Shown piece by piece: positions 5,129 through 23,234 of a stretch of 34,964 bases of DNA. The notes below the pieces were generated by a model that searched no databases, was not told the DNA's origin, and worked only from the letters and a program-made list of their open reading frames with translations. Origin of the DNA: Gemmatimonadota bacterium (lineage in GTDB: Bacteria > Gemmatimonadota > Gemmatimonadetes > Longimicrobiales > RSA9); contig JADGQX010000016.1 in assembly GCA_017881445.1 (NCBI GenBank), forward strand, positions 1 through 34,964. The letters run 5' to 3'. Position 1 is the stretch's first letter. Each line of letters begins with the position of its first letter. A program made the position numbers and the translations under genes.

Positions 5129-5835
<707 letters not shown>

Positions 5836-5865: not shown

Positions 5866-6282
5866 CTACTCACCACAGAGGTCAGAGAGCGATGGGAGGG
5901 ATCGGGGCGGCCGCAGGACCACGCGGCGCAACCCATGCTTCAGGAACTGGACGTTGAAGTTGATCAACAGCCCGACCGGGCAGTCCGTCAAGTTGATGTA
6001 GGTCAGCATCTGGGCGAGGTGGATCGGAAGCAGACGCGAAACGGACTTCAGCTCGACGATCACCTGGTCTTCGACTACGAAATCGAGGCGGTAGCCACAG
6101 TCGACCGTCTGGCCACGGTAGCTGAAGTTCAGCGGGTACTGCCGCTGAAACCGCAGCCCCCGCTCCGCCAGTTCGAGCACCATGCACGTTTCATAGGCCG
6201 ATTCGAGCAGTCCGGGCCCGAGCCGGCGGTGGACTGCCATGGCCGAGCCGATGACCAGCCCGGTGATGTCGTTGATGTTCAT
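5866..6282 (-). CDS. GxxExxY protein, PD-(D/E)xK nuclease-like
   Basis: A 138-residue protein of the GxxExxY family (predicted PDDEXK-fold, function not established). The name-giving motif is GLLESAY (Gly24, Glu27, Tyr30) and the nuclease-like core is RLDFVVEDQVIVELKS, with Asp67, Glu77 and Lys79. Conserved LAQMLTYI and GLLINFN follow. I chose the ATG at 6282 because the family starts right there (NDITGLVIGSAMAVHRRLGP). No good Shine-Dalgarno precedes it. It runs opposite to the pur genes and its stop lies at the left terminal repeat. A degenerate second copy of its two ends sits at 21809-21988. Confidence 0.9.
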   Translation of the reverse strand: MNINDITGLVIGSAMAVHRRLGPGLLESAYETCMVLELAERGLRFQRQYPLNFSYRGQTVDCGYRLDFVVEDQVIVELKSVSRLLPIHLAQMLTYINLTDCPVGLLINFNVQFLKHGLRRVVLRPPRSLPSLSDLCGE

Positions 6283-6347
6283 ACGAATAGCTGGTTGATG
6301 ACGCCCGGTGAGCCTGTTGGATGTACCTCTGAGCCCTCTGTGGTGAA
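5870..6347 (-). mobile_element. 478-bp GxxExxY element with terminal inverted repeats
   Basis: The left end reads TCACCACAGAGGTCAGAG from 5870 and the right end, read from the other strand at 6347, TTCACCACAGAGGGCTCAGAG minus its last base. The ends are an 11-bp perfect inverted repeat extending imperfectly inward. The only gene inside is the antisense GxxExxY frame, whose last codons (DLCGE) lie in the left repeat. The insertion separates purQ from purL. No clean target-site duplication is visible, so the outer limits are uncertain. No transposase is encoded; any mobility would need to be provided in trans. Confidence 0.7.
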
Positions 6348-6436: not shown

Positions 6437-8761
6437 ATGACGCACTCTCCTGCCACGTCGAAGGCCCGCCCCCGCCCCGGTGACCCCGAGATCACCCCCG
6501 AGCTGGTCCAGCTCCATGGGCTGAGCGACGAGGAGTACGGGCAGATCCTGGAGATCCTGGGGCGGACGCCCACGTACACGGAGCTGGGGCTGTTCAGCGC
6601 GCTCTGGTCGGAGCACTGCGGCTACAAGAACTCGAAGCCCCTGCTGAAGAAGCTGCCCACCAAGGCGCCCTGGGTGCTGCAGGGACCGGGTGAGAACGCG
6701 GGCGTCATCGACATCGGGGACGGGCTGGCCATTGCCTTCAAGATCGAGTCGCACAACCACCCCTCGGCGGTGGAGCCGTACCAGGGCGCGGCCACGGGAG
6801 TAGGCGGCATCCTGCGCGACGTCTTCACTATGGGCGCCCGGCCCATCGCCGTGCTGGACTCGCTGCGCTTCGGCTCGCTGACCAGCCCGCGCGTGCGCTA
6901 CCTGTTCGCGGGCGTGGTCAAGGGCGTGGGCGACTACGGCAACTGCGTGGGCATCCCCAACATCGGCGGGGAGGCCTACTTCGACGACGCCTACGAGGGC
7001 AACCCGCTGCTGAACGCCATGGCCATCGGCCTGGTGAAGCGCGACGAGCTGATCCGCGCCGAGGCCGAGGGCGTGGGCAACCCGATCATGGCCGTGGGCG
7101 CGCGCACGGGGCGCGACGGCATCCACGGCGCCACCTTCGCCAGCGTGGAGCTGAGCGAGAAGAGCCACGAGCGCCGGCCGCAGGTGCAGGTGGGCGACCC
7201 CTTCACCGAGAAGCTCTTGCTGGAGGCGTCACTGGAGCTGATCCGCAGCGGCCACATCGAGGGCATCCAGGACATGGGCGCCGCGGGGCTGGCCTCGTCC
7301 TCCACGGAGATGGCGGCACGCTCGGGCACGGGCGTGGACATCGACATCACGAAGATGCCGGTGCGCGAGACGGGCATGACGCCCTACGAGATCCTGCTGT
7401 CCGAGTCCCAGGAACGCATGCTGGTCGTGGCCAGGAAGGGGCACGAGGACGACGTCATCGCCATCCTGCGCAAATGGGAGCTGGAGGCCGCGACCATCGG
7501 CGTGGTCACGGACGACGGGCTGTACCGGGTGCGGGAGGGCGACGCCGTCGTCTGCGAGGTGCCCGGCTACCCCCTGGTGACCGGCTGCCCCACGTACGTG
7601 CGGGAGGGCCGGGAGGCGGAGGAGCCGCGTCGCCTGAGGGCGTGGGATCCGATGAGCCTGGAGAGCGAGGGCGGGCCGGCCCACCCCACCCGGGTGCTGG
7701 CGCGCCTGCTCGGCTCGCCCAACATCGCCAGCAAGGCCTGGATCTACCGCCAGTACGACTCCACCGTGCGGACGAACACAGTGGAGGCTCCGGGGGGCGA
7801 CGCGGGCGTGCTGCGGTTGCGGGGCACGCGCAAGGGCATCGCCGCGACCGTGGACTGCAATGGGCGGTACTGCTACCTGAACCCGCGCCGCGGCGGCATG
7901 ATCGCCGTGGCCGAGGCGGCTCGCAACCTGGCCTGCGTGGGGGCGCGCCCCCGGGCGGTGACGGACAACCTGAACTTCGGCAACCCGCTCAAGCCGGAAG
8001 TCTACTTCCAGCTGAGCGAGGCGGTGGACGGGATCGCGGAGGCGTGCCGCCGGCTGGACACGCCCGTGGTGAGCGGCAACGTGTCGCTTTACAACGAGAA
8101 CCCGCAGGGCGCGATCTATCCCACGCCCGTGATCGGCATGGTGGGCGTGCTGGAGGACGTCTCACGCCGCATGGTGCTGGGCTTCCGGGAGCCGGGGGAC
8201 GCCATCGTGCTCCTGGGCCGGAACACGGGGGAGCTGGGCGGCTCCGAGTACCTGAAGGTGGTGCACGGCCGGGTGGGCGGGGACGCGCCCGCCGTGGACC
8301 TGGACGCCGAGCGCGCCCTCATCGAATGCTTGCTGGAGCTGGCGGATGCGCGCCTGCTGGCCAGCGCCCACGACTGCGCCGAGGGCGGGCTGGCGGTCTG
8401 CCTGGCCGAGAGCGCCATGGCGGACCCGCTGCGGCCGCTGGGCGTGGCCGTGGAGCTGGAGGACGCGCTGCCCGGCGCGCCGCTCTTGTTCGGGGAGGCG
8501 CAGGGCCGGGCGGTGGTCTCCTGCGGGCCCGCGGAGCTGGAGCGGGTGCTGGAGGCGGCGCGCCGCCACGGCGTCCCCGCCGCGCGCATCGGCAGCGTGG
8601 GAGAGCCGGATGGCCGGTTCGTGGTCCGCAGCCGCAGCGCCGCCGCCATCGACGCGGCCGTGGGGGAGCTGCACGAGGTCTGGTCCACGGCGATCCCGCG
8701 CATGATGGACCGGTCGGCCGCGGCGTCGGACGTCGCGCTCGAGCCCACGCCGACCGCCTGA
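6437..8761 (+). CDS. purL: Phosphoribosylformylglycinamidine synthase, PurL subunit
   Basis: Synthetase subunit of FGAM synthase: converts FGAR, ATP and PurQ-derived ammonia to FGAM. The 774-residue length fits the small PurL type that needs PurS and PurQ. Visible motifs are [19 protein letters not shown] near residue 55-73, [19 protein letters not shown] followed by [16 protein letters not shown] near 100-135, and [17 protein letters not shown] near 640. The ATG has GGAG about five bases upstream. The gene is cut off from purQ by the GxxExxY element, so it depends on read-through or on a promoter at 6348-6436, where I see no clear one. Confidence 0.96.
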
Positions 8762-13755: not shown

Positions 13756-13783
13756 GCGAGTAGTCGCTCGGCAGGTGTGAGAA

Positions 13784-13818
13784 GGGGCCCGGCGCCAACG
13801 CGCCGGGCCCCTCGTTTT
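13784..13818 (+). terminator. Rho-independent terminator of ppdK
   Basis: A perfect 12-bp stem (GGGGCCCGGCGC at 13784-13795, complement at 13800-13811) with loop CAAC is followed by TCGTTTT. It sits about 30 bases after the ppdK stop. Confidence 0.9.
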
Positions 13819-13819
13819 G

Positions 13820-13945
13820 TTCACCGCAGAGCCACAGAGGTCACAGAGAACAGATCTGTTGTAGTTAACCACAACATCCAGTCACCGTTACGCCAGGTAA
13901 CTGGCGGACTGGCCGGCTCTGTGTCCTCCGTGCCTCTGCGGTGAA
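13820..13945. mobile_element. 126-bp MITE-like element with 29-bp inverted repeats
   Basis: The ends at 13820-13848 and 13917-13945 are inverted repeats matching at 26 of 29 positions, beginning TTCACCGCAGAG and containing two more CACRGAG units. Inside lie a near-palindrome centred on GTTAAC (13858-13875, 16 of 18 symmetric) and a perfect 6-bp hairpin with GTAA loop (13891-13906). It encodes nothing. It sits between the ppdK terminator and the 3' end of the convergent acyltransferase gene. The end sequence is related to, but distinct from, that of the GxxExxY element. Confidence 0.7.
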
Positions 13946-17303: not shown

Positions 17304-20300
17304 ATGAACCGCCCGAATCGCTTCTATGCGCATTCCCTGCGAGCGGCCTCACGGCCGCTCGTGTGCATCCTGCCCCTGGCGTCGCTGGCGACGGTGCTGG
17401 CCTGCGCGACCGCGGTCCCGCCCGCGCCCCGCCCCGCCCTCGCCCCGGCGCCGGCGCAGGCGCAGGCCGCGCCCCTGGCTCCGGCGGACAGCACGGTCAC
17501 GCTATACCTGCTGGGCACGACCGACGTCCACGGGCATGTCTACCCGTACGACTACTACAACGGCCGGGCGACCGGGCAGGGCCTGGCGCTGCTGGCCCCG
17601 CTGGTGGACAGCGTGCGCGCCGCCCACCCGGGCGCCACGTACCTCTTCGACTCCGGCGACCTGCTGCAGGGCACGCCCCTGACCTACCTGGCTGCCCGCC
17701 CCGGCGCCGCCCCGCCCGGGCTGCGCCCGGCGCCGGGAGCACCGCGGGAGCCCCACCCGGTCATGGTGGCCATGAACCTGATGCGCTACGACGCCAGCGC
17801 TATCGGGAATCACGAGTACAACTATGGCATCGGCACGCTGGACAGCACGCTGGCGCAGGCGCACTTCCCCTTCGTCGCCGCCAACGTGTTCCGCCACGGT
17901 ACGGACCAGCCGGCCTACCGGCCGTACGTGCTGCTGGCGCACGTCGTCGCCCCGGGCGACACCGTGCTGGTGGGCGTGACGGGCGTGACGCCGCCGGGCG
18001 TGCTGATCTGGGACCGGGGCAACGTGTTGGACCGGCTCGACTTCCGTGAACCGGTCGCCTCCCTGAAGCCGGTGGTGGCAGAGATGAAGGCCCGCGGCGC
18101 CGACGTCGTCGTCGTGCTGAACCACGGCGGGCTCGAGGGCACCAGCTACGACACCACCTCGGGCGTGCCCCCGGAGAACGCCGGCGCCCGCATCGCCCGG
18201 GAGGTCGCGGGCGTGGACGTCGTCTTCCTGGGGCACACGCACCGCGAGCTCGCCGACAGCGCCATCAACGGCGTGCTGCTGACGCAGGCCGGCGCCCAGG
18301 CGCGCAGCCTGGCCCAGGCCACGGTGACGCTGGTCCGGCGCGGGCCCTCCGACTGGGCCGTGAGCGCCCGCCGGGCCATGCTGCTACGGCCCGACCCGCG
18401 CCACGCCGACCAGGCGCTGCTGGACTCGCTGCGCTGGGCCCACGAGCGCGCCCTGGCTTACGTGCGCTCGGTCGTCGGCCGCGCCACCGAGCCCATGGAG
18501 GCCGCCCGCGCCCGTGCCGAGGATACGCCCCTCGTGGACTTCGTGAACGAGGTCCAGCGCCGCGCCGCGGGCACGGAGCTGTCCGCCGCCTCGTCCTTCG
18601 CGCCCGAGGCAAGTATCCCGGCGGGGCCGGTCAGCATTGGCCAGATCGCCGCGATCTACCCCTACGAGAACACGCTGGCGGCCGTACGTCTCACGGGCGC
18701 GCAGCTCCGGGGCTACCTGGAGAAATCGGCCGAGTACTTCCGGACGTGGCCCGTGCCCGCCGGCCAGAGCCTCGTGAACCCGGGCGTGGTCGGCTACAAC
18801 TTCGACATGGTGAGCGGCGTCGACTACACCATCGACCTGTCCAGACCCGTCGGGCAGCGAATCACCGCCCTCACCTTCCGGGGCAAGCCGGTCCGCCCCG
18901 ACCAGAGCTTCACCATGGCGCTGAACAGCTACCGCCGGGGCGGCGGTGGCGGCTACTCCATGGTGGCGGCAGCGCCGGCCGTCTACGAGAAGGACCAGGA
19001 CATCCGGGACCTGCTGGTGGACGAGGTCCGCCGCAAGGGTGTTTTGCGCCCGGCCGACTACTTCCGGCGCAACTGGGTGATCGTCCCCGCCGCCGCCGCG
19101 CAGCAGGCCGCCCGCGAGCTGCCAGACTACGGCCGGCGCCCGGGCGCCCCCTCCGCCGGTGCCGCGGCGTCAGGCGGCGCACGCCCCGCGCCCCTGCGCC
19201 TGCGCGTCCTCACCACCAACGACTTCCACGGACACCTGCTCCCCGAGACCTACGCCTGGTCGGGCGGGCGTCCCGTGGGCGGCGCGGCCACCCTGGCCGC
19301 CTACTTCCGCGCCGAGCGCGAGGGCTTCGGCGGGCCGGTCGTGCTGCTCGATGCCGGCGACGAGATGCAGGGAACACCCATCTCCAACCTCACGCGCGGC
19401 GCCTCCACCGTGTCCTTCTTCGACGCCGTGACCGACCGAGCCGCCGCCATCGGCAACCACGAGTTCGACTGGGGCGTCGCGGCGCTGCGCGCCCGCATGG
19501 CCCAGGCGCGCTACCCCTGGCTCGCCGCCAACGTGTTCGTCGCCGGCGCGGATACCGCCCCCTCCTGGGTCCACGCCACCACCATGCTCGTCGTGGGCGG
19601 CGTGCGCGTGGGCGTCATCGGCCTGGCCACGCGCGAGACGCCCAACACCACCAAGGCGGAGAACGTGCGCGGGCTCGAGTTCCGCGACGGCGCCGCCGCC
19701 ATCGACCGCTGGGTCCCGCAGCTGCGCCGCCAGGGCGCCGACTTCGTCGTGGTGGTGGCCCACAGCGGCGCCGCCTGCGACGCCTCCGGCGGAGCCGACT
19801 GCCGGGGCGAGGTCGTGGACTGGGCCCGCGCCGTGCACGAGCGGCCCGACCTCATCGTCGCCGGCCACACCCACACCCTCATGCGGGTCGTGGTCAACGG
19901 CATCCCCATCGTGCAGGCCGCGTCCTACGGCCAGCGCTACGGCGTGGTGGACCTGGAACGGGGCGATCGGGCGACGCCGGCGCCCTCGGCGGGCGGTTCG
20001 GCCTCCGTGACCTCCGTGGCAGTTCGAGATCTGCCGGTTGCCTGGGCCGACCGGCTGCCTCCCGACAGCGGCGTCGCCGCCCTCGTCGCCCGCTACCAGC
20101 GGGAGATCGGGCCCCGCGTGAACGCCGTCGTCGCCACGCTGGCCGGCCCCATCTCCCGGGGCATGGGCGACTTCCCCCTGGGCCGCCTGCTCGCCGACGC
20201 CTGGCGCGCGCAGACCGGCGCCCAGGTCGCCTTCATCAACAACGGCGGGATTCGAGCCGAGCTGAAGGCCGGGCCCGTCACCTGGGGCGCGCTCTACGAG

Positions 20301-20720
20301 CTGCAACCCTTCAACAACCGGCTCGCCGTGCTGACCATCACCGGGGCGAAGCTGCGCCAGGCCGTCGAGACCGCCGTGCGCGGCACCAGCCCCGACGCCA
20401 ACGTCAGCGGCATCCGCGCCAGCTACGACCGGTCCCGGCCGCCCGGCGCCCGCCTGACCGCCCTCACCCTCGCCGATGGCACCCCCATCCGCGACGACGC
20501 CCACTACACGGTGGCCATGCCCGACTTCCTGGCCGGTGGCGGCGACCGCTACTCCGCCTTTACCGCGCCGCTGGCCCGCACCGACTCGCCGCTGGTGGAC
20601 CTGGACGCGCTCATCGCCTACCTGCGCGGGCGTCCCCAGCCTGTTCAGGCACCCGCGGACCCGCGGCTGGTTCCCTTCGGGCCCGAGCCCGGGCCCGGGC
20701 CCGAAAGGAACCGGCCGTGA
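17304..20720 (+). CDS. yfkN: YfkN-like tandem nucleotide phosphoesterase lipoprotein
   Basis: A 1138-residue fusion of two complete metallophosphoesterase/5'-nucleotidase modules. The N terminus is a lipoprotein signal (lipobox VLAC, Cys34). Module 1 (about 65-605) has TTDVHGH (Asp74, His76), IGNHEYNYG and GHTHRE, and a C-domain with SIGQIAAIYPYENTLAAVRL and SYRRGGGGGYSM, features of CpdB-type 2',3'-cyclic-nucleotide phosphodiesterases. Module 2 (about 630-1120) has TTNDFHGH (Asp640), IGNHEFDWG, VAGHTHT, NNGGIRAEL and LQPFNNRL, as in UshA-type 5'-nucleotidases. This order matches Bacillus YfkN. It would turn extracellular cyclic and 5' nucleotides into nucleosides. The stop overlaps the adenosine deaminase GTG. 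The linker near residue 885-910 holds two repeat fragments. Confidence 0.9.
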   Translation: MNRPNRFYAHSLRAASRPLVCILPLASLATVLACATAVPPAPRPALAPAPAQAQAAPLAPADSTVTLYLLGTTDVHGHVYPYDYYNGRATGQGLALLAPLVDSVRAAHPGATYLFDSGDLLQGTPLTYLAARPGAAPPGLRPAPGAPREPHPVMVAMNLMRYDASAIGNHEYNYGIGTLDSTLAQAHFPFVAANVFRHGTDQPAYRPYVLLAHVVAPGDTVLVGVTGVTPPGVLIWDRGNVLDRLDFREPVASLKPVVAEMKARGADVVVVLNHGGLEGTSYDTTSGVPPENAGARIAREVAGVDVVFLGHTHRELADSAINGVLLTQAGAQARSLAQATVTLVRRGPSDWAVSARRAMLLRPDPRHADQALLDSLRWAHERALAYVRSVVGRATEPMEAARARAEDTPLVDFVNEVQRRAAGTELSAASSFAPEASIPAGPVSIGQIAAIYPYENTLAAVRLTGAQLRGYLEKSAEYFRTWPVPAGQSLVNPGVVGYNFDMVSGVDYTIDLSRPVGQRITALTFRGKPVRPDQSFTMALNSYRRGGGGGYSMVAAAPAVYEKDQDIRDLLVDEVRRKGVLRPADYFRRNWVIVPAAAAQQAARELPDYGRRPGAPSAGAAASGGARPAPLRLRVLTTNDFHGHLLPETYAWSGGRPVGGAATLAAYFRAEREGFGGPVVLLDAGDEMQGTPISNLTRGASTVSFFDAVTDRAAAIGNHEFDWGVAALRARMAQARYPWLAANVFVAGADTAPSWVHATTMLVVGGVRVGVIGLATRETPNTTKAENVRGLEFRDGAAAIDRWVPQLRRQGADFVVVVAHSGAACDASGGADCRGEVVDWARAVHERPDLIVAGHTHTLMRVVVNGIPIVQAASYGQRYGVVDLERGDRATPAPSAGGSASVTSVAVRDLPVAWADRLPPDSGVAALVARYQREIGPRVNAVVATLAGPISRGMGDFPLGRLLADAWRAQTGAQVAFINNGGIRAELKAGPVTWGALYELQPFNNRLAVLTITGAKLRQAVETAVRGTSPDANVSGIRASYDRSRPPGARLTALTLADGTPIRDDAHYTVAMPDFLAGGGDRYSAFTAPLARTDSPLVDLDALIAYLRGRPQPVQAPADPRLVPFGPEPGPGPERNRP
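19960..19976 (+). repeat. GGGGCGAYC unit pair inside the phosphoesterase gene
   Basis: One GGGGCGATC unit (19960-19968) followed by a near-copy GGGCGACG, encoding part of ERGDRAT. It matches the 9-bp repeats in the htrA-like gene and purS. Confidence 0.5.
20002..20019 (-). repeat. Lone CACGGAG repeat unit in coding sequence
   Basis: Read on the minus strand this is CCACGGAGGTCACGGAGG. It matches the left arm of the 126-bp element (CCACAGAGGTCACAGAG) at 15 of 17 positions. It lies in the linker of the second module of the phosphoesterase and keeps the frame (SVTSVA). Confidence 0.45.
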
Positions 20721-21760: not shown

Positions 21761-21808
21761 GCCAGCCCTTGCGCCTGCCGACAGTGCATCGCGCGGCAAG
21801 CCTCATGA

Positions 21809-21988
21809 TTCACCACAGAGTTCATAGAGGTACGGGAGAGATCCCCGGCACCGCAGCACCCGGCCTGCGAACCCCTGGCTCCATCGTTCATCCCGGCTAT
21901 GTCGTTGGTTTTAGCTGGTTTGAACAAACAACTGCCTGATGACGCCCGGGAAGCGTGTTGGATGTACCTCTGAGCCCTCCGTGGTGAA
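21809..21988 (-). mobile_element. 180-bp internally deleted relic of the GxxExxY element
   Basis: Both ends begin TTCACCACRGAG as inverted repeats. The last 52 bases (21937-21988) match the right end of the intact element (6296-6347) at 48 of 52 positions. Inward of both ends traces of the two coding ends remain, but about 300 bp of the middle are missing. It sits between the adenosine deaminase gene and the toxin-antitoxin promoter. Confidence 0.8.
21813..21915 (-). pseudogene. Remnant of a GxxExxY coding sequence
   Basis: On the minus strand, 21892-21906 reads AACGACATAGCCGGG, against AACGACATCACCGGG in the intact gene's first codons, but the ATG is lost. The stretch from about 21880 down to 21813 matches the last codons (GGGTTCGCAGG..., against GGGTTGCGCCG...) out of frame. 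The nuclease core is gone. Confidence 0.6.
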
Positions 21989-22093: not shown

Positions 22094-22492
22094 ATGGCAT
22101 TGCCTCAGAAGCGACGAGGGCCGATCCCGCACGCGGAGCTGGCCGGCGCCGGGCTGCGCGCCTTCTTTCGCATCGCCGAGGCCTGGGGGCTGGGCATCGA
22201 GGAGCAGGTGACGCTGCTGGGGAGTCCCGGGCGCTCGACGTACTTCAAGTGGAAGCGGGACGGGGCGACGTCGCTCCCCCGGGACGTGCTGGAGCGGATC
22301 TCCTACATCCTGGGGATCTACAAGGCGCTGCAGATCCTGCTGCCGGACCTGGCCGCGGCGGACGGCTGGGTGCGGCGGCCGAATTCGGCACCGCTCTTCG
22401 GCGGTCGGAGTGCGCTGGAGCGGATGCTGTCGGGGAACGTGGCGGACCTTTACCTGGTGCGGCAGTATCTGGATGCCGAGCGGGGCGCGTAG
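22094..22492 (+). CDS. MbcA/ParS/Xre-type antitoxin
   Basis: A 132-residue antitoxin of the Xre-RES class: it binds and neutralises the RES toxin and usually represses its own operon. The N-terminal half is a helical Xre-like DNA-binding region (STYFKWKRDGATSLP, then VLERISYILGIYKALQILLP). The C-terminal half is the toxin-binding domain, seen as FGGRSALERMLSGNVADLYL with VRQYLDAERG at the end. The start is set by GGAG six bases upstream. The last 20 bases overlap the best toxin start. A promoter and two direct repeats lie directly upstream. Confidence 0.88.
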   Translation: MALPQKRRGPIPHAELAGAGLRAFFRIAEAWGLGIEEQVTLLGSPGRSTYFKWKRDGATSLPRDVLERISYILGIYKALQILLPDLAAADGWVRRPNSAPLFGGRSALERMLSGNVADLYLVRQYLDAERGA

Positions 22493-23234
22493 CGCGGCCG
22501 CGGCCGGCGGAGGTGGGGCGCCGGAGGGGCGAGGTGGCCCGGAGCCGCCCGTTCGGGCGCTGGGCTGGGGCCCGGCCTATAGGATCTTGCCCTCGCGCTT
22601 CCCGCCCATCGACCTGTTCGAGCGCGTGGCGTCGCCCGCGGACTGGGAGGCGCTGATCGAGCTGGAGTCGCTGACCAACGACCGGCTGCGGGACGAGGTG
22701 GGGCGGATCCAGCTGGTGCCGCCGGAGGAGCGCGTGTCCGGGCCGGGCGCGGGCTACGTCATGGCGGCCTTCACGCACATCGCGCCGGAGGGCGGGCGCT
22801 TCAACGACCCGAGCTTCGGCGCCTATTACGCCGCCCGCGCCCTGGAGACGGCGGTGGCGGAGACGAGCTACCACCGGGCGCGCTTCCTGTCCGCCACACA
22901 GGAGCCAGCCATGCAGCTGGACATGCGCGTGCTGGAGGCGGAGCTCGCGGGAGAGTTCCACGACCTGCGCGGGCTGCGCGCAGAGTGGCCGGCGGTGTAC
23001 GAGCCCGCCGACTACTCCGCGGGCCAGGCGCTGGCGCGACGGCTGAGGGCGGGTGGCTCGGACGGCGTCGCCTTCGAGAGCGTGCGGCACGCCGGCGGCG
23101 AGTGCGCCGCGGTGTTCCGCCCGCGCCTGGTCCTGCGCTGCCGCGAAACGCGGACGCTCACCTACATCTGGGACGGTCAGTCGATCTCGGGCGTGTACGA
23201 GAAGAAGCCGTTCCGCCCCCGCCACACGCGCTGA
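22473..23234 (+). CDS. RES-domain toxin (MbcT-like)
   Basis: Toxin of the RES family; characterised members destroy cellular NAD+. The RES core is visible as GGRFNDPSFGAYYAARALET (Arg109 in GRFN, then paired Tyr) followed by AVAETSYHR with the conserved Glu. The later FESVRHAGG supplies the family's conserved Ser. I placed the start at the ATG at 22473, which overlaps the antitoxin by 20 bases and gives 253 residues; a GTG further in would remove the low-complexity N terminus of about 35 residues. All named RES residues are present, so the toxin is probably functional. Confidence 0.87.
   Translation: MPSGARSAAAAGGGGAPEGRGGPEPPVRALGWGPAYRILPSRFPPIDLFERVASPADWEALIELESLTNDRLRDEVGRIQLVPPEERVSGPGAGYVMAAFTHIAPEGGRFNDPSFGAYYAARALETAVAETSYHRARFLSATQEPAMQLDMRVLEAELAGEFHDLRGLRAEWPAVYEPADYSAGQALARRLRAGGSDGVAFESVRHAGGECAAVFRPRLVLRCRETRTLTYIWDGQSISGVYEKKPFRPRHTR

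Follow-up and report, generated by a model that had tools for sequence, protein, structure and literature searches.

The window is the whole 34,964-nt stretch of a Gemmatimonadota contig that was analysed, and it carries three units with inverted ends, all three of them intergenic. The full-length element (5869-6347, minus strand) is 479 bp long and is located between purQ, which ends at 5835, and purL, which starts at 6437. It starts at 5869, and its arms (5870-5889 and 6327-6346) are 85% complementary. Its gene (5866-6282, minus strand) encodes a GxxExxY protein of 138 aa from the PD-(D/E)XK nuclease family, and the final codons overlap the terminal repeat of the element. The protein matches the profiles PF13366 (PDDEXK_3; E = 4e-42, 143.9 bits, cut-off 22) and TIGR04256 (E = 7e-43, 145.7 bits, cut-off 35). 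The nuclease motif is intact (D67, E77-x-K79, Q91-x3-Y95); in an alignment of 27 sequences D67, E77, K79 and Y95 are invariant and Q91 is present in at least 90%. The predicted structure is a confident fold (pLDDT 94), to which the nearest PDB structures, SSO0001 and lambda exonuclease, are weak matches (best E = 7e-3), and the PDB contains no sequence relatives of the protein. Genes of other phyla resemble the window gene just as closely (62%) as its own paralogues do. A mainly plasmid or phage gene was ruled out, GxxExxY being found in 8 of 72,556 plasmid records and in no phage. The open-access papers that were searched contain no description of the function, repeat association or mobility of GxxExxY proteins and nothing relevant on the repeat words described below.

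The 180-bp relic (21809-21988, minus strand) is bounded by a terminal inverted repeat (TIR) of 25 nt (21809-21833 and 21964-21988, 80% complementary), and the full element is its second-best match in the whole genome (E = 3.6e-15). Its right end together with the 5' non-coding region (21924-21988, minus strand) forms an ungapped repeat of 65 nt with 6283-6347, in which 56 bases are identical (86%). An earlier note on this DNA had counted 48 of 52 end bases as conserved, and exactly this number is shared by 21937-21988 and 6296-6347; over the final 30 bases of the right end, 29 match. Positions 21888-21923 (minus strand) align to the beginning of the GxxExxY coding sequence in the full element. 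The start codon itself is gone, there is an 8-nt insertion, and the trace of the first codons reads ACCAACGACATAGCCGGG in the relic versus ATCAACGACATCACCGGG in the full element. At the opposite side, 21795-21843 (minus strand) covers what is left of the 3' coding end, together with the left terminus; this stretch of approximately 50 nt is 78% identical to the full element and extends 14 bp beyond the TIR. Approximately 300 bp of the nuclease coding core are missing when the relic is aligned to the full element. In both copies the TIR follows the pattern TTCACCACRGAG.../...CTCYGTGGTGAA, from which the full element departs by a single mismatch at its left tip. The alignment agrees with the earlier description of two termini and two coding ends around an absent nuclease core, except for the lost start codon, and supports the reading of the 180-bp sequence as an internally deleted derivative of the GxxExxY element. 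Directly adjoining the relic are a gene for an Xre/MbcA/ParS-type antitoxin and then one for a RES-domain toxin (22094-23234).

The third unit (13820-13945, no strand assigned) has the ends only, with arms of 29 nt (13820-13848 and 13917-13945) that are 90% complementary. It is located between a gene for a PEP-utilising enzyme and a convergent acyltransferase gene, and an ordinary terminator-like hairpin (13783-13812) directly precedes it. Elsewhere in the window, 17304-20720 is a single reading frame of 1138 aa with two 5'-nucleotidase/metallophosphatase halves; the 71% repeat between 17793-17905 and 19440-19552 suggests an internal duplication in this frame.

Derivatives and gene-less units in the genome

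The two copies on which the earlier note was based are too few. Four further deleted derivatives (C237, C70, C160 and C50) are similar to the full element outside the arrays as well, which bears out the internal deletion and brings to five, relic included, the derivatives with internal resemblance; dozens of other units share the ends only. Coding ends are kept in the relic, C237, C70 and C160, and C70 still translates into N-terminal and then C-terminal fragments, with stops. The relic and C237 appear alike across the deletion joint, whereas C70, C160 and C50 have other joints. The similarity among C237, the full copy and the relic continues for some bases past the TIR on one side. The C198 gene of the same genome has the ends TTCACCGCAGAG...CTCTGCGGTGAA, a further case of ends shared with a gene-bearing element. 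The recent spread proposed earlier is not supported, since identity between the copies is only about 75-88% where they match.

In pattern searches, on which the genome counts of arrays rest, CACRGAGN{1,3}CACRGAG gave 169 matches in the 4.75-Mb genome versus 0 for the reversed pattern. Forty loci were fetched, most of them covering the first 100 of the 169 matches, and in 27 of these 40 both terminal motifs occur, inverted, at a spacing of 100-300 bp. A 52-base end restricted to two places is thus contradicted by many units genome-wide. Of 38 extracted units, 33 span 101-215 bp, and in these the mean pairwise identity is about 81% for the ends and 44-48% (near the shuffled or chance level) for the interiors. 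The anticipated contrast between conserved ends and free interiors was found, although it is partly circular, the ends having been used to find the units; the sounder argument is the nearby inverted partner end, which was absent from the first search criteria. The units with TIR lack coding capacity, and many that show no trace of the gene have a different common interior (CTGTTGTTGTTAACAACAACA). Arm complementarity is 0.818 within a unit and 0.808 between units. Since arms match about as well between as within units, recognition of the arrays by duplex sequence rather than by hairpin is suggested. Two units of about 295 bp, L320 (C279) and L317 (C263), appear to be nested insertions in which a CACGGAG-type unit houses all or part of a CGAAG-type unit; in L320 the CGAAG-type unit lies between the arms of the other.

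Gain and loss between relatives

In one genus, two genomes each have about 40 or more copies of a 169-bp unit that was undetected in four sister species. Two genomes that are approximately 91% identical over 169 kb differ by two tandem units at a shared GxxExxY gene and by one unit that is present or absent between two genes. At L116 and L117, with the same GxxExxY gene and flanks of about 95% identity, one species has three tandem units of approximately 135 bp and its sister has one. Of 23 relatives, 18 have a purQ-purL gap of 2-207 bp and four have one of 825-1261 bp without GxxExxY. The remaining relative has, in this gap, a GxxExxY gene 46% identical to the window protein, with other repeat words, and this element is best read as an independent insertion.

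Target-site duplications showed no excess for k = 3-9 at unit ends or for k = 5-9 within 40-nt flanks (loose boundaries), and a base-exact empty site was found in none of the related-genome comparisons, purQ-purL included. The comparison with a MITE made in the earlier note stands as regards the TIR, the internal deletion and the shared ends. Movement of the units is at most plausible.

Arrays around GxxExxY and TIGR02436 genes

Eighty GxxExxY loci were taken from public genomes in a sample biased towards relatives of the six window proteins, and 75 of them, spanning approximately 15 phyla plus archaea, had enough flank. The repeats lie in inverted arrays and are 8-10 nt long. An inverted-repeat score of at least 15 was reached by the flanks of 71% of the 75 genes versus 1 of 254 shifted controls (0.4%), which were displaced by 1.5-2.2 kb. 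The mean score was 19.3 for own flanks and 9.3 for shifted positions; non-cognate flanks, in which the motif is also present, averaged 10.8. The array words vary among loci (CACAGAG, CGCAGAG, CGCAAAG, CACGAAG, CGCGGAG) and vary in step with protein identity (Mantel r = 0.335; maximum of 1000 permutations 0.209), a covariation that shared ancestry or base composition may have caused. Arrays on both sides are lacking at several genes (e.g. L093, L118), and in L092, L094, L096 and L103 the gene is located between two complete units. GxxExxY elements with inverted arrays are also located between fabD and fabG in Sphingomonas parapaucimobilis (L244) and next to radA in Bacteroides finegoldii (L243).

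Within the phylum, 121 genomes were compared; they are related, hence the counts are not independent, and the array-count thresholds were picked after the counts were seen. TIGR04256 is encoded in 17 of the 18 genomes with at least 8 CACRGAG matches versus 21 of the 103 others (Fisher P = 1.9e-9). For a second word, CRCGAAG, all six genomes with at least 20 matches encode GxxExxY. Genome G083 has 109 CACRGAG array matches and clear gene-less units (L367, L368, L369), and the GxxExxY gene was not found in this draft (97% complete).

Genes for TIGR02436 four-helix-bundle proteins, used as a comparison set, likewise lie in inverted arrays, with other words. At 30 such loci in genomes of the phylum (L335-L364; words GTCAGGA, CAGGTAT, GGCGAGG) the own score is 27.9 versus 9.2 for non-cognate flanks, and 26 of 30 reach at least 15. 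The genome studied here has such a locus itself (C127:5900-6208, L366), with the ends GGGGATGGGGAGATGGGG...CCCCATCTCCCCATCTCCCC. GxxExxY as the sole gene in such arrays was rejected by this control. The TIGR02436 genes encode no nuclease yet have arrays, so arrays do not require GxxExxY. Given the same architecture around TIGR02436/S23p genes, we can only infer that GxxExxY is a mobiliser, and the nuclease may be cargo.

Interpretation and known systems

The best reading is that gene-less and gene-bearing units form one REP/RAYT-like or MITE-like system, with GxxExxY as its likely trans-acting enzyme. We put at roughly one half the probability that the relic is a non-autonomous derivative of the GxxExxY element and that the nuclease cuts at the arrays and helps units to copy or insert, much as RAYT does for REP. 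In this proposal the element is one small gene for a PD-(D/E)XK nuclease with an array of CACRGAGG-like direct repeats, each 8-10 nt long, on either side, the two arrays being inverted relative to each other; units with these ends but no gene are dispersed through the genome. The arrays would be double-stranded sites recognised by sequence. Cutting there by GxxExxY would aid the copying or insertion of units with or without the gene, so that units would be mobilised in trans, and insertion would proceed via cutting and repair-linked copying, with no target-site duplication.

The wider claim is that prokaryotic mobile DNA includes a widespread, undescribed class (inverted 8-10-nt arrays with tens of gene-less derivatives) whose enzymes are the GxxExxY nucleases and which TIGR02436/S23p links to the intervening sequences of 23S rRNA; it is put forward tentatively, at less than an even chance. 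The combination of GxxExxY with mirrored arrays of short repeats across many bacterial phyla suggests selfish or mobile DNA of a kind that has received little attention. GxxExxY proteins occur in many phyla, and inverted arrays that track the protein sequence offer a testable candidate substrate. If correct, the proposal would account for the common 'CACAGAG...' intergenic repeats of environmental genomes and could set the S23p intervening sequences within a broader class of tiny selfish elements.

Another system, so far unrecognised, might instead move the inverted-array units, with GxxExxY and TIGR02436 as cargo genes. The architecture that TIGR02436 genes share at 26 of 30 loci, with other words, fits this explanation, as do the GACAGAT heptamers before the S23p gene in the intervening sequence (IVS) of Coxiella, a selfish element of the 23S rRNA (PMC4990558). 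It is nevertheless considered unlikely: abundant CACRGAG arrays are absent from 30 of the 31 genomes that have TIGR02436 without GxxExxY, G083 being the exception; the array words track GxxExxY similarity; and a non-systematic search found no third common gene. Slightly less probable is a series of separate horizontal transfers of full elements, each followed by decay in situ, the short copies never having moved themselves. The differing deletion joints of C70, C160 and C50, the equal similarity of the gene to paralogues and to genes of other phyla, and the occupation of the purQ-purL site by two dissimilar elements in different genomes are all in its favour; against it stand the resemblance of the relic to C237 over the joint and the tens of copies in which uniform short units are found. 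Still less is to be said for homing, by which a GxxExxY gene behaving like a homing endonuclease would insert in the middle of older inverted-repeat units, the gene-less units being unoccupied sites. It would suit the many units with their own common interior and the genes found between two complete units in several genomes; however, the coding ends in the relic, C237, C70 and C160 indicate that at least these lost the gene, and a homing gene alone leaves dozens of dispersed units unexplained. That the units are immobile, selected intergenic terminators or mRNA-stability hairpins is very improbable, for although all window units lie between genes and inverted repeats could fold in RNA, the unit at 13820 comes right after a terminator-like hairpin, the arms have no special complementarity within a unit, most relatives lack a unit in the purQ-purL gap, and sister species differ.

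Among known families, the window protein is by profile a clear member of GxxExxY (TIGR04256 / PF13366). Bacterial MITEs have lost internal sequence, carry terminal inverted repeats, and combine conserved ends with free interiors. The deleted derivatives described here likewise share the TIR and conserved ends with a gene-bearing element and have free interiors, but the full copy has no DDE transposase as partner, and no target-site duplication was found. The Coxiella IVS is similar in being a selfish element of approximately 430 nt with one small ORF, internally deleted in one strain, and short direct repeats before the gene; it differs in lying inside the 23S rRNA and in encoding a four-helix-bundle protein instead of a nuclease (PMC4990558). 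REP/REPIN sequences and RAYT (TnpA-REP) resemble the present system in their tens of short inverted-repeat units outside genes, in a single-gene nuclease flanked by its own repeats, and in a repeat type that follows the enzyme type (PMC3116915, PMC8266576). RAYT belongs to the HUH tyrosine enzymes, with REP hairpins as the structures it recognises (PMC3116915, PMC8266576), whereas the flanked gene here encodes a PD-(D/E)XK protein and not an HUH tyrosine (Y1) transposase, and the ends, unlike those of REP, are arrays of 8-10-nt direct repeats with no excess of complementarity within a unit. The system works most like REP/RAYT, yet its enzyme is not the one that defines that family.
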